Under the pieces are notes generated by a model, which had not been told where the DNA came from, did not search any database, and saw nothing but the letters and a program-made list of their open reading frames with translations. Shown here in pieces: positions 3,880 to 14,894 of a DNA stretch of 64,000 bases (position 1 is the first letter of the stretch; each line of letters begins with the position of its first letter). Position numbers and translations under genes: made by a program. Source of the stretch: Methanosarcina horonobensis HB-1 = JCM 15518 (GTDB lineage Archaea; Halobacteriota; Methanosarcinia; Methanosarcinales; Methanosarcinaceae); NCBI RefSeq assembly GCF_000970285.1, contig NZ_CP009516.1, forward strand, positions 909,036 through 973,035. The letters run 5' to 3'.

Positions 3880-4929
3880 TTGCTGAATACCATAAGAACC
3901 GTAAAAATCTGTTTTGTAATAGGTTTTGTACTTCTGTTGCTCAGCTCAGGGTGTGCAGCTGCCAGAAGGATCACCGTGGGGAGTGATGACAACAAAGATT
4001 TTCCTTCAATTCAGGAAGCTGTCAATGCAGCAAAGGCTGGAGATACGGTTTATGTGTATAACGGGCTTTATATGGAAAACATATATCTTGATAAAGAAAT
4101 TTCCGTTCGTTCGATCTCCGGAAACCCTGAAAAAAACGTTGTAACGGCAAAAAACCCCGGAGACCATGTGTTTCATGTAATTGCAAATAACGTGACTATA
4201 AGCGGTTTTTCCATTAATGGCGCTAACGACACTCTGAAGGCTGGCATTTATCTGGAGAATACACAGGGAATTATGATAAGCAATAATAGACTTTCCAGCA
4301 ACCGTCTGGGTGTTTATCTAGACTCTTCTACTACCAATATGTTGAATCTTAACAATGTGTCTGAAAATGAGGTAGGAATTTTCCTTAACGATTCAGGGAA
4401 TAACTGGATTATCAATAATAAAGTGGAAATGAACAGCTTGAGAGGAATTCTCCTTGAAGCTTCCGATAGGAACCAGCTAAAAGGAAATCTTCTGCATTTC
4501 AATGCAGGGTACGGCCTTATGCTCTCAAACAGCAGTAAAAATCTCATTTACGATAACTATTTCCAGAACTCTGAAAATGTTGGTTATGAAGGAACTAACC
4601 TGGAAAATGACTGGAACATGAGTATGAAGAGGGGAATAAACATTGTTGGAGGACCCTATATCGGTGGAAACTACTGGACCAGTCCTGAAAGTACTGCCGT
4701 GTGTGTTATTGAAGATCTGGACGATAATGGTCTTTGTGATACTTCATACGATCTGGGAGAGGGTAACATTGACTACATGCCTCTTATCCGGCGCCCTCAG
4801 ATTTTTCAGGGTAGAGAGCGTCCTATTACGGTCACCCTTTTTGGACTTGGCTTATTCATACTTATCCTTACGGTATTCATTGTAAGGAGGGTAATGGGCT
4901 GGGGAAAAGATCGTTACGAAAAAAAATGA
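3880..4929 (+). CDS. Cell-surface right-handed beta-helix (NosD-like) protein with C-terminal membrane anchor
   Basis: I place the start at the TTG at 3880, directly behind GAGGTGAT (3871-3878), rather than at the ATG at 3838. This puts a clean signal peptide (TVKICFVIGFVLLLLSSG, then Cys) at the N-terminus of a roughly 349-residue protein. DFPSIQEAVNAAKAGDTVYV and many N-N-x-hydrophobic repeats (ISNNRL, NLNNVSEN, IINNKVE, IYDNYF) are typical of the NosD/periplasmic copper-binding-type parallel beta-helix. A C-terminal hydrophobic stretch (FGLGLFILILTVFIV) followed by basic residues is a membrane anchor. It is probably displayed outside the cell and may be glycosylated. The ligand is unknown. 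Confidence 0.75.
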   Translation: MLNTIRTVKICFVIGFVLLLLSSGCAAARRITVGSDDNKDFPSIQEAVNAAKAGDTVYVYNGLYMENIYLDKEISVRSISGNPEKNVVTAKNPGDHVFHVIANNVTISGFSINGANDTLKAGIYLENTQGIMISNNRLSSNRLGVYLDSSTTNMLNLNNVSENEVGIFLNDSGNNWIINNKVEMNSLRGILLEASDRNQLKGNLLHFNAGYGLMLSNSSKNLIYDNYFQNSENVGYEGTNLENDWNMSMKRGINIVGGPYIGGNYWTSPESTAVCVIEDLDDNGLCDTSYDLGEGNIDYMPLIRRPQIFQGRERPITVTLFGLGLFILILTVFIVRRVMGWGKDRYEKK

Positions 4930-5225
4930 GAAGTAAAGTGAGCATATAAAGTAAAGCAGAATAATGGAAATAAAACGAGAATAAACTGAAAGTAAACGAA
5001 ATACGGCAGTTTTTAAGCAGGCAGTAATAATACTCAGCAAACCCGGAAAATTTTAAATTCACACTTTTTTGATTAATTAGCTTTCCGGGAAAAGCTTATT
5101 TAACGGCTTCTTTATATATTGCCTGAAGAATCATATTTTCAGGTACATGTATCTGGGTTAGTACGTATATCTGGTTTAATGTGTTTCAAAAAATTATTTC
5201 ATAAATTTTGTTACTTCAAAAAAAT

Positions 5226-5238
5226 CTATATATTTATG
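5226..5238 (+). promoter_or_regulatory. TATA-box-like promoter element for the mannose-1-phosphate guanylyltransferase gene
   Basis: CTATATATTTATG at 5226-5238, preceded by A-rich sequence resembling a BRE, lies about 60 bases before the proposed start at 5297. Transcription would begin near 5262, leaving a short leader with the AAAGGAGAT ribosome binding site at 5282-5290. The wider gap 4930-5296 has no gene; it holds a weak inverted repeat CCTGAA...TTCAGG near 5123-5142. Confidence 0.5.
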
Positions 5239-5296
5239 TAGAGTGGGTTATACTTACATTGGATGAATTTTACCAACACCTAAAGGAGATGACAGG

Positions 5297-6664
5297 ATTA
5301 AGTCGATAATTCTTGCAGGTGGCTCAGGGACGAGACTCTGGCCTCTCAGCCGGGAAATGTATCCCAAACAATTTTTAAAGTTCGGGGAAACATCACTTTT
5401 TCAGGAAACTGTGCTTCGATGTCTTGAGGTTTCGGATATTTCTGAAATTTTTGTTGTAACCAATGAAGCTCAGAAATTTTTTGTAATTGGACAGATCAAG
5501 GAGACAGGATACTCAATCCCTCCCGAAAACGTTCTGATCGAGCCTGAAGGCAAGAACACACTTCCTGCGATTTTCTACGGAATGAAAGAAATTGAAAAGA
5601 AATTCGGGAATTCGATCGTAGGAATCTTTTCCTCAGATCATGTTCTTGACAGAGCTGCAATGGGAACGATTTCTTCAGCTGAAAAGCTGGCTTCGGATTA
5701 TCTGGTCACTTTTGGGGTTGTTCCCACATTTCCTCATACGGGATACGGCTACATTAAAGCGTCAGAAGCCTGTGAGCCCGGTTACAGGGTCTCGGAATTC
5801 AGGGAAAAACCTGATTTTGAAACCGCCCAGAAATATATCGAAGAAGGTTGCCTCTGGAACAGCGGAATGTTCCTCTTTGAGACACGGCTTTTCTTTGAAG
5901 AAGTCAAAAAACACGCACCTTCGGTTTTTGCCTGTTTTGAGAAAGGGGGAGATATTAATGAAATTTATACGTGTGTGGATAAAGTCTCCATTGACTACGG
6001 CATAATGGAGAAATCCGATAACGTTGCTGTTGTAAAGCTGAACCAGAAGTGGAGTGACCTTGGAAACTTTGCTGCAATTTATGATGAGCTGGAGAAAGAC
6101 TCGGTAGGAAATGTGATCCATGAATGTGATCCAATGCTTCTTAACTCCGACGGGAATCTGGTATATTCGAAATGCGGGAAAATCGTTTCCCTTATTGATG
6201 TTAAGGATATGGTGGTTGTTGATACGAGCGATGCCCTGTTAATATGCCCCAAGTCCAGCAGTCAGAAAGTAAAGGAAATAGTTTCGGATCTCAAGACCAG
6301 GAAAGATGAAAGGGCGTTTGTCGGGCAAACAGTCTACCGACCCTGGGGCTCATATACACTGCTTGACGCCTCTCCAGGCCATAAAATAAAGAATATCACT
6401 GTGCTTTCTGACCATAAGTTAAGCCTTCAGTTGCATTATCACAGGAGTGAGCACTGGGTGGTTGTAAAAGGTATGGCGTGTGTGGAAGTTGATGGGAAGC
6501 AGTTTTTCCTGAGACCAGGGGAAAGCACGTTTATCAGAGCCGGACAAAAGCACAGGCTGTCAAACCCCGGAAAAGTTCCTCTTGAGATTATCGAGGTGCA
6601 GTTAGGAGAGCTTGTGGATGAAGGAGATATTGTCAGGTTTGATGACGTATATGGTAGACAATAA
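5297..6664 (+). CDS. manC: Mannose-1-phosphate guanylyltransferase / mannose-6-phosphate isomerase, ATT start
   Basis: The fused GDP-mannose enzyme has a nucleotidyltransferase domain followed by a type II PMI cupin domain (HYHRSEHWVVVKG, RPGESTFIRAGQKHRL). The family signature IILAGGSGTRLWPLSRE is encoded in frame upstream of the first ATG (5357). The only place for a normal N-terminus is ATT AAG TCG at 5297, eight bases after GGAG of AAAGGAGAT. A stop lies upstream in the same frame and no ATG, GTG or TTG is available. The resulting 455 residues match the family's usual length. The enzyme makes GDP-mannose from mannose-1-phosphate and GTP, and the PMI half interconverts fructose-6-P and mannose-6-P. 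It supplies sugar donors for the glycan genes that follow. Confidence 0.88.
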   Translation: MKSIILAGGSGTRLWPLSREMYPKQFLKFGETSLFQETVLRCLEVSDISEIFVVTNEAQKFFVIGQIKETGYSIPPENVLIEPEGKNTLPAIFYGMKEIEKKFGNSIVGIFSSDHVLDRAAMGTISSAEKLASDYLVTFGVVPTFPHTGYGYIKASEACEPGYRVSEFREKPDFETAQKYIEEGCLWNSGMFLFETRLFFEEVKKHAPSVFACFEKGGDINEIYTCVDKVSIDYGIMEKSDNVAVVKLNQKWSDLGNFAAIYDELEKDSVGNVIHECDPMLLNSDGNLVYSKCGKIVSLIDVKDMVVVDTSDALLICPKSSSQKVKEIVSDLKTRKDERAFVGQTVYRPWGSYTLLDASPGHKIKNITVLSDHKLSLQLHYHRSEHWVVVKGMACVEVDGKQFFLRPGESTFIRAGQKHRLSNPGKVPLEIIEVQLGELVDEGDIVRFDDVYGRQ

Positions 6665-13868: not shown

Positions 13869-13937
13869 TGCACAAATTTTTATGTTTTAAAACAGTCGGT
13901 GTATTATTGTAATGTATTCTTTGCAGAGGTGACCTGA

Positions 13938-14894
13938 ACGAAACTGCTGGTAACAGGAGGCTGCGGATTTATAGGCAGCAATTTTATCCGTTATATGCTG
14001 GAAAAGTATCCGCACGACCGAATTATAAATCTTGACAAACTGACATATGCCGGGAATCCAGCCAATCTCAAAGATATTGAGAATAACCCTAACTATTCTT
14101 TTGTCAAAGGAGATATCTGCGACCCTGCCGTTGTGAATGAAGTAATGAAAAATGTAGATCAGGTAGTTCATTTCGCAGCCGAAAGCCATGTTGACCGTTC
14201 AATTGAAGATGGATCGGTTTTTGTAAGGACAAACGTACTTGGTACAAACACCCTTCTCCAGAGTGCGCTTGCAAACGATATCATGAAATTTATCCACGTT
14301 TCAACTGATGAGGTATACGGCAGTATAAAAGAGGGGTCTTTTATTGAAAAAGATAATTTGAATCCTTCAAGCCCTTATTCTTCAAGCAAAGCAGGTTCGG
14401 ACCTCCTTGCAATGTCTTATTACACAACCTATGAGCTGCCTGTTTGCATTACGAGGTGTACAAACAACTTTGGTCCTTACCAGTATCCTGAAAAGCTGAT
14501 TCCTTTTTTTATCAGCAGATTAATGGAAGGAAAGAAAGTTCCAGTGTACGGTACAGGCAAGAATATCAGGGACTGGATCTATGTTGAAGATCACTGCTCT
14601 GCAGTAGATTTTGTTCTTCATAACGGAAGCAGCGGAGAAATTTATAATATCGATGGCGGGAACGAACTTACAAATCTTGAAATCACTCATCGCCTTCTTA
14701 GAATGCTTGGCAAAGACGAATCTTCAATTGAATATGTTGAAGACAGAAAAGGTCACGACTTCCGGTACTCCCTTGACGGCAGCAAACTGGAAAAAATGGG
14801 CTGGACACCAAAATATGATTTTGATACTGCCCTTGAGCAAACAGTCAGGTGGTATGTTGAAAATCGGTGGTGGTGGGAACCATTAAAGCACTGA
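13938..14894 (+). CDS. rmlB: dTDP-glucose 4,6-dehydratase, ACG start
   Basis: The product is an extended short-chain dehydrogenase of about 318 residues. The NAD-binding TGGCGFIGSNFIRYM block, the STDEVYGS region and the catalytic YSSSKAGSD are all clear, followed by GRNIRDWIYVEDH-like sequence. The first ATG in frame (13995) lies inside the Rossmann motif and would destroy NAD binding. The frame reads TGA ACG AAA CTG CTG GTA ACA, so ACG at 13938 sits immediately after an in-frame stop, exactly where ATG would be expected (MKLLVTGG). GAGGTG at 13926-13931 is six bases upstream. It converts dTDP-glucose to dTDP-4-keto-6-deoxyglucose. Confidence 0.92.
   Translation, partial: TKLLVTGGCGFIGSNFIRYMLEKYPHDRIINLDKLTYAGNPANLKDIENNPNYSFVKGDICDPAVVNEVMKNVDQVVHFAAESHVDRSIEDGSVFVRTNVLGTNTLLQSALANDIMKFIHVSTDEVYGSIKEGSFIEKDNLNPSSPYSSSKAGSDLLAMSYYTTYELPVCITRCTNNFGPYQYPEKLIPFFISRLMEGKKVPVYGTGKNIRDWIYVEDHCSAVDFVLHNGSSGEIYNIDGGNELTNLEITHRLLRMLGKDESSIEYVEDRKGHDFRYSLDGSKLEKMGWTPKYDFDTALEQTVRWYVENRWWWEPLKH

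Follow-up and report, generated by a model that had tools for sequence, protein, structure and literature searches.

The manC gene of Methanosarcina horonobensis HB-1, located at positions 5297-6664 (+) of the window (the whole 64,000-nt stretch of contig NZ_CP009516.1 analyzed here), is very probably translated from an AUU codon at 5297 by near-cognate initiation behind a strong Shine-Dalgarno sequence, an arrangement conserved across most of the order; this reading rests on comparative sequence analysis, in the absence of peptide, ribosome-profiling or reporter data. The gene encodes a GDP-mannose-forming enzyme, a bifunctional mannose-1-phosphate guanylyltransferase/mannose-6-phosphate isomerase of 455 codons, and its product matched TIGR01479 (GMP_PMI, the equivalog for the ManC/AlgA-type bifunctional enzyme) with E=1.2e-133 and 446.4 bits, against a curated cut-off of 372.95, in an alignment spanning profile positions 2-467 of 467. 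The Pfam domains PF00483, PF22640 and PF01050 were also found, the nucleotidyltransferase and mannose-phosphate isomerase domains both being present. Since residue 2 of ManC aligned with position 2 of TIGR01479, the ATT codon falls at profile position 1, where the initiator methionine belongs. A base-by-base reading of the manC frame located an in-frame TGA stop at 5264-5266 (+), 33 nt upstream of the ATT, and no ATG, GTG or TTG anywhere in 5267-5356, the first such codon being the ATG at 5357, in agreement with the preliminary description, in which an in-frame stop excluded an earlier standard start codon. The ATT (5297-5299, +) is followed by AAGTCGATAATTCTTGCAGGTGGC (KSIILAGG) and preceded by the Shine-Dalgarno sequence AAAGGAGATGA (5282-5292, +), whose predicted duplex with the 16S tail AUCACCUCCU has an energy of -9.0 kcal/mol; the 16S tail GGATCACCTCCT was found in the M. 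horonobensis genome. From the GGAG at 5285-5288 to ATT 5297 the spacer is 8 nt, as had been described; the in-frame near-cognate codons ATA 5306 and ATT 5309 are also present, with spacers of 17 and 20 nt. The assignment of ATT 5297 as the start, first made in the preliminary description, held in all computational tests, being supported by sequence, conservation, spacing, profile register and substitution pattern, and has no protein-level evidence. Further upstream, a TATA-like sequence, TATATATTTA (5227-5236, +), may be a promoter giving an mRNA with a short leader; it was judged by eye only, and an AT-rich stretch resembling it was seen in several relatives and was missing in two. An Rfam scan of 4900-5500 matched no family, indicating that no known riboswitch or leader is located there.

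Homologues of manC were drawn from the genus, the family and the order, giving 128 Methanosarcinales ingroup loci and 7 outgroup rows, which share descent, so that the counts given here are not independent. The gene was found in 28 of 31 Methanosarcina genomes, and the codon at the start position was ATA or ATT in all orthologues and never ATG, GTG or TTG; the sole other codon in the genus was a GTG (L031), which belongs to a paralogue with 73% protein identity. Across the ingroup, the start position held ATA in 69 loci, ATT in 31, ATC in 8, GTT in 2, GTC in 1, ATG in 16 and GTG in 1 (a non-NTG codon in 111 of 128 loci and ATG or GTG in 17), and all seven outgroup rows (bacterial or Methanothermococcus) had ATG. 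The non-NTG starts spanned Methanosarcinaceae, the family with Methanoperedens and a third family, with named examples in Candidatus Methanoperedens, Methanomethylovorans, Methanolobus and Methanosarcinaceae MAGs. No ATG, GTG or TTG lay between the upstream stop and the non-NTG codon in 44 of the 111 loci, and 14 lacked all three codons within 30 nt whatever the frame, while the next NTG of the related loci was found anywhere from +15 to +285, with no fixed position. The first base of the 111 codons was A in 108 and G in 3, the second was T in all and the third was A, T or C, a pattern that near-cognate pairing to the anticodon CAU predicts. A protein tree built without the start codon contained at least eight changes between NTG and non-NTG, with most ingroup clades AUH. 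The comparison of this position in relatives, proposed as a check in the preliminary description, came out in favor of the ATT, a non-NTG codon standing there throughout the genus and in most of the order, and as judged from these alignments the non-AUG start of manC is a trait conserved through Methanosarcina and most of Methanosarcinales and not an oddity of one gene. Among other family members, three loci (L153, L162 and L195) had manC homologues with GTT or GTC behind GGAGGAAT, which suggests that GUU and GUC may serve as starts there. A Methanosarcinaceae MAG (L038) carried two manC copies close together, with the start codons ATC and ATA.

The GGAG spacer was 7-9 nt in 92 of the 111 non-NTG loci (8 nt in 57, 9 nt in 33 and 7 nt in 2), and in 1.26 Mb of the M. 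horonobensis genome, where a strong Shine-Dalgarno sequence accompanied an NTG codon close to an ORF start, the spacer peaked at 8-9 nt. The median duplex energy was -9.0 kcal/mol for the non-NTG loci compared to -4.6 kcal/mol where the ingroup has ATG (16 loci; p=1e-4, phylogeny ignored); however, phylogenetically independent pairs (6 pairs) did not support an association between Shine-Dalgarno strength and the non-AUG start, and a stronger Shine-Dalgarno sequence as compensation for the non-AUG codon in manC is therefore not claimed. These spacings bear on the alternative that survives best, namely that most Methanosarcina species start at an in-frame ATG at -9 (MTGIKSII...) and that the group represented in the window was forced onto ATT by a 1-nt deletion. 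In six species (L002, L003, L004, L005, L007 and L009) the ATT is the same, the spacer is 1 nt shorter and the upstream ATG therefore falls out of frame; Methanosarcina sp. DH2 (L032) showed the same out-of-frame-ATG, ATT-only arrangement, while the remaining Methanosarcina species have the ATG in frame 9 nt upstream (ATGACAGGYATA), so that through most of the genus this codon would add three residues by ordinary initiation. However, the ATG overlaps the Shine-Dalgarno sequence, leaving a spacer of 0, and only 1 of the 2030 NTG codons tested in the 1.26 Mb had a strong Shine-Dalgarno sequence at that spacer. In addition, the gene tree shows 4 changes in the frame of this ATG, which switches back and forth between close relatives, and outside the genus a non-NTG codon without an upstream NTG is common. 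We consider a start at the upstream ATG unlikely, though it retains some weight.

In the window, the corresponding ATG at 5289 opens a six-codon frame (MTGLSR; 5289-5309, +) that ends in TAA 5307-5309 and whose ATG overlaps the Shine-Dalgarno sequence. The preliminary description had noted this frame and raised the possibility that it affects initiation; the frame does exist, but a role in initiation is unlikely, given that it is not conserved and that a spacer of 0 is poor. Among the homologues, an ATG was located at -8 relative to the non-NTG codon in 34 loci and in frame in 32, and 28 loci had none within 20 nt in any frame. Where the ATG is at -8, its frame is often 3 or 6 codons long and ends on or close to the start, which would be consistent with a regulatory upstream frame controlling manC by stop-start coupling. 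Nevertheless, presence, frame and length differ among relatives, and the spacer of 0 makes the NTG a poor start, so that such control is improbable, and the short frame was rejected as a conserved uORF because it is not kept across relatives. Harder still to sustain is a model in which ribosomes initiate at ATG 5289 and then shift by -1 to reach the manC frame: the ATG adjoins the Shine-Dalgarno sequence and the two frames would be connected by such a shift ahead of TAA 5309, but no slippery heptamer was found in ATGACAGGATTAAGTCGATAA, and the 14 homologous loci that lack an NTG in every frame within 30 nt argue against a conserved upstream initiating codon.

The internal codon for Met 21 (5357-5359, +) is the first standard in-frame start codon, and a start there would leave the upstream stretch untranslated. 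The preliminary description had named such a start as an outcome that would refute the ATT; it would remove the conserved GGSGTRLWP motif, and it is contradicted by the loss of the conserved nucleotide-binding motif together with the pattern of substitution. In 285 codon comparisons among the six out-of-frame-ATG species, all 32 changes in codons 2-20 of manC (KSIILAGGSGTRLWPLSRE; 5300-5356, +) were synonymous and none was non-synonymous, while the rest gave 1917 synonymous and 502 non-synonymous changes in 6450, indicating that the stretch 5' of ATG 5357 is under protein-level constraint and is translated although it precedes the first ATG. The unfixed position of the next NTG in the relatives also speaks against this codon, and Met 21 was rejected as the start with near certainty; the earlier statement that the conserved N-terminus is encoded 5' of the first ATG agrees with both the profile register and the synonymous-only variation. 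A sequencing or assembly error at 5297, which had likewise been named as potentially refuting, or a decayed gene cannot be ruled out from a single genome but can be set aside with the same assurance, as the identical ATT and its flanks occur in six independent genomes with the ATG out of frame, ATA or ATT is genus-wide and the gene is intact.

For initiation at AUU 5297, we propose that the strong Shine-Dalgarno sequence AAAGGAGAUGA would pair with the 16S tail and position the 30S subunit so that AUU, at the optimal spacer of 8 nt, occupies the P site, and that Met-tRNAi (anticodon CAU) would pair with the first two bases of AUU, leaving the third mismatched; the initiator-tRNA mechanism is inferred. 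The N-terminus of ManC would then be Met-Lys-Ser-Ile, with methionine as the inferred first residue, and the peptide expected from an AUU or AUA start would be MKSIILAGGSGTR, either unmodified, acetylated or without its Met. Such a weak start may reduce initiation and be kept for that reason, an inference drawn from comparable bacterial reporters, which reach about a tenth of AUG (PMC13009471). By this analogy the near-cognate start probably lowers ManC output, although both the lowered output and selection for it are inferred and not shown. A third-base G was found in 0 of 61 rows from Methanosarcina, its sister genus and the Methanoperedens family, clades that were picked after seeing the data, and 2 of 40 neutral fourfold sites in these rows were also without G. 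On the whole tree, about 2 changes to third-base G were counted compared to 4-5 expected, which is not significant, and the avoidance of G is thus only suggestive of selection for a weak start.

A survey of codons upstream of the first NTG in 1.26 Mb of the genome, scored for a Shine-Dalgarno run of at least 6 bases at a spacer of 7-9, found such runs at 18 of 1260 near-cognates and 62 of 11125 other codons (odds ratio 2.6, p=0.001), and at 4 of 83 ACG codons; the near-cognate candidates peaked at spacers of 8-9, the same as NTG. An initial genome survey on GGAG spacing alone did not show an AUH excess, and it took longer Shine-Dalgarno runs, scored ahead of the first NTG, for the signal to emerge. 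From the sequence evidence, manC appears to belong to a small class of genes with near-cognate starts that includes at least three more in this genome, encoding a hexulose-phosphate synthase (AUC), a DUF1269 protein (AUA) and RmlB (ACG). The hexulose-phosphate synthase/RraA fusion (NF005442; L285:5884-7161, -) starts at ATC, and its start position in 30 Methanosarcina loci held ATA in 16, ATC in 12, ATG in 1 and ATT in 1 (with a one-codon shift), all behind an extended Shine-Dalgarno sequence, mostly GAGGTGATACT or GAGGTGATATT, with a stop 12 nt upstream of the start in many species. The DUF1269 gene (PF06897; L253:4028-4531, +) starts at ATA, and in the genus ATA (12) and ATG (14) occupy the same place. 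For rmlB, encoding dTDP-glucose 4,6-dehydratase (TIGR01181; 13938-14891, +), TGA 13935-13937 directly abuts the start codon ACG 13938, the Shine-Dalgarno sequence GAGGTGA is located at 13926-13932, and position 1 of the profile corresponds to residue 2 of RmlB; the start position in the genus is ACG in 3 species, ATG in 7 and TTG in 14. This exchange with ATG or TTG at fixed positions is the strongest comparative evidence that the near-cognates act as starts here. Within rmlB, a TTT and an ATA (13968-13973) were discarded as starts, a false hit in which the local GGAGG is coding sequence for TGGCG; following up this hit revealed the ACG start. The DUF255/YyaL-like gene (PF03190; 49168-51279, -) has no ATG, GTG or TTG before its conserved N-terminus, its possible starts being ATA 51261 or the following CTG. 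Further AUU/AUA candidates with a strong Shine-Dalgarno sequence were noted at L264:6608-9562 (+), L287:6619-7548 (-) and L254:13029-15431 (+), with a NosD/PKD surface protein (signal-peptide-like N-terminus), an ABC ATPase and an HAE3 transporter as the products. Overall, we lean towards the hypothesis, held with clear reservation, that Methanosarcinales follow a relaxed, Shine-Dalgarno-driven start rule in which AUA, AUU, AUC and ACG (perhaps also GUU/GUC and CUG) would be regular minor starts in about 1% of genes; such starts would have persisted for as long as the order itself in some cases, giving low or condition-dependent output, and would be systematically missed by ATG/GTG/TTG annotation.

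Gene finders restricted to ATG, GTG and TTG would truncate or lengthen proteins with such starts, so the N-termini given for central enzymes (ManC, hexulose-phosphate synthase and RmlB) may be wrong, which would affect databases and expression constructs. The persistence of an AUH start through most of the order, where the second base does not vary and G is rare at the third, provides a natural way to ask how far aIF1/aIF2 tolerate mismatches and whether Shine-Dalgarno pairing can stand in for codon match; an AUU-to-AUG swap is within reach in those species of Methanosarcina that are genetically tractable. A review of archaeal initiation names AUG, GUG and UUG (PMC7531240); for M. mazei, the available portions of a Ribo-seq paper treat ATG, TTG, GTG and CTG starts (PMC11456600), and those of a proteomics paper name only GUG and UUG as alternatives (PMC4350412). 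Searches of open-access literature, subscription papers not being covered, found no report of AUA, AUU or ACG starts in Methanosarcina, nor of conserved ones in archaea. Near-cognate starts are already known from bacteria; the larger finding here is that an archaeal order has conserved a start other than AUG and that one of its genomes holds a small class of such genes.

Among prokaryotic GUG and UUG starts, a weaker start codon goes with a stronger Shine-Dalgarno sequence, and AUG was replaced by AUU once among 61,358 ancestral AUG starts in an analysis that used annotated starts (PMC5622118), whereas AUH is the prevailing state of manC across an order. In Escherichia coli, infC and pcnB share the AUU start codon with manC, and this codon limits their translation (Butler et al. 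1987; Binns and Masters 2002; via PMC1780047 and PMC13009471). The infC gene autoregulates through IF3, whereas ManC is a sugar-nucleotide enzyme without a known role in initiation, and no infC-type autoregulatory loop is thus implied. The non-canonical starts of Staphylococcus aureus are found in ccpN (AUA), cvfC1 (AUU), citZ (AUA) and infC (AUA), and reporters with AUA or AUU behind an extended Shine-Dalgarno sequence gave about 10% of AUG, with ccpN reaching up to 30% in rich medium (PMC13009471). The manC start resembles these in having AUA or AUU behind an extended Shine-Dalgarno sequence and in its conservation between species, which was described for cvfC1 and ccpN (PMC13009471). However, the S. 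aureus cases involve bacterial, IF3-based selection and a handful of genes, whereas manC is archaeal (aIF1/aIF1A/aIF2), and in Methanosarcinales the start is kept across the order, AUA, AUU and AUC exchange with one another, and ACG is also used.
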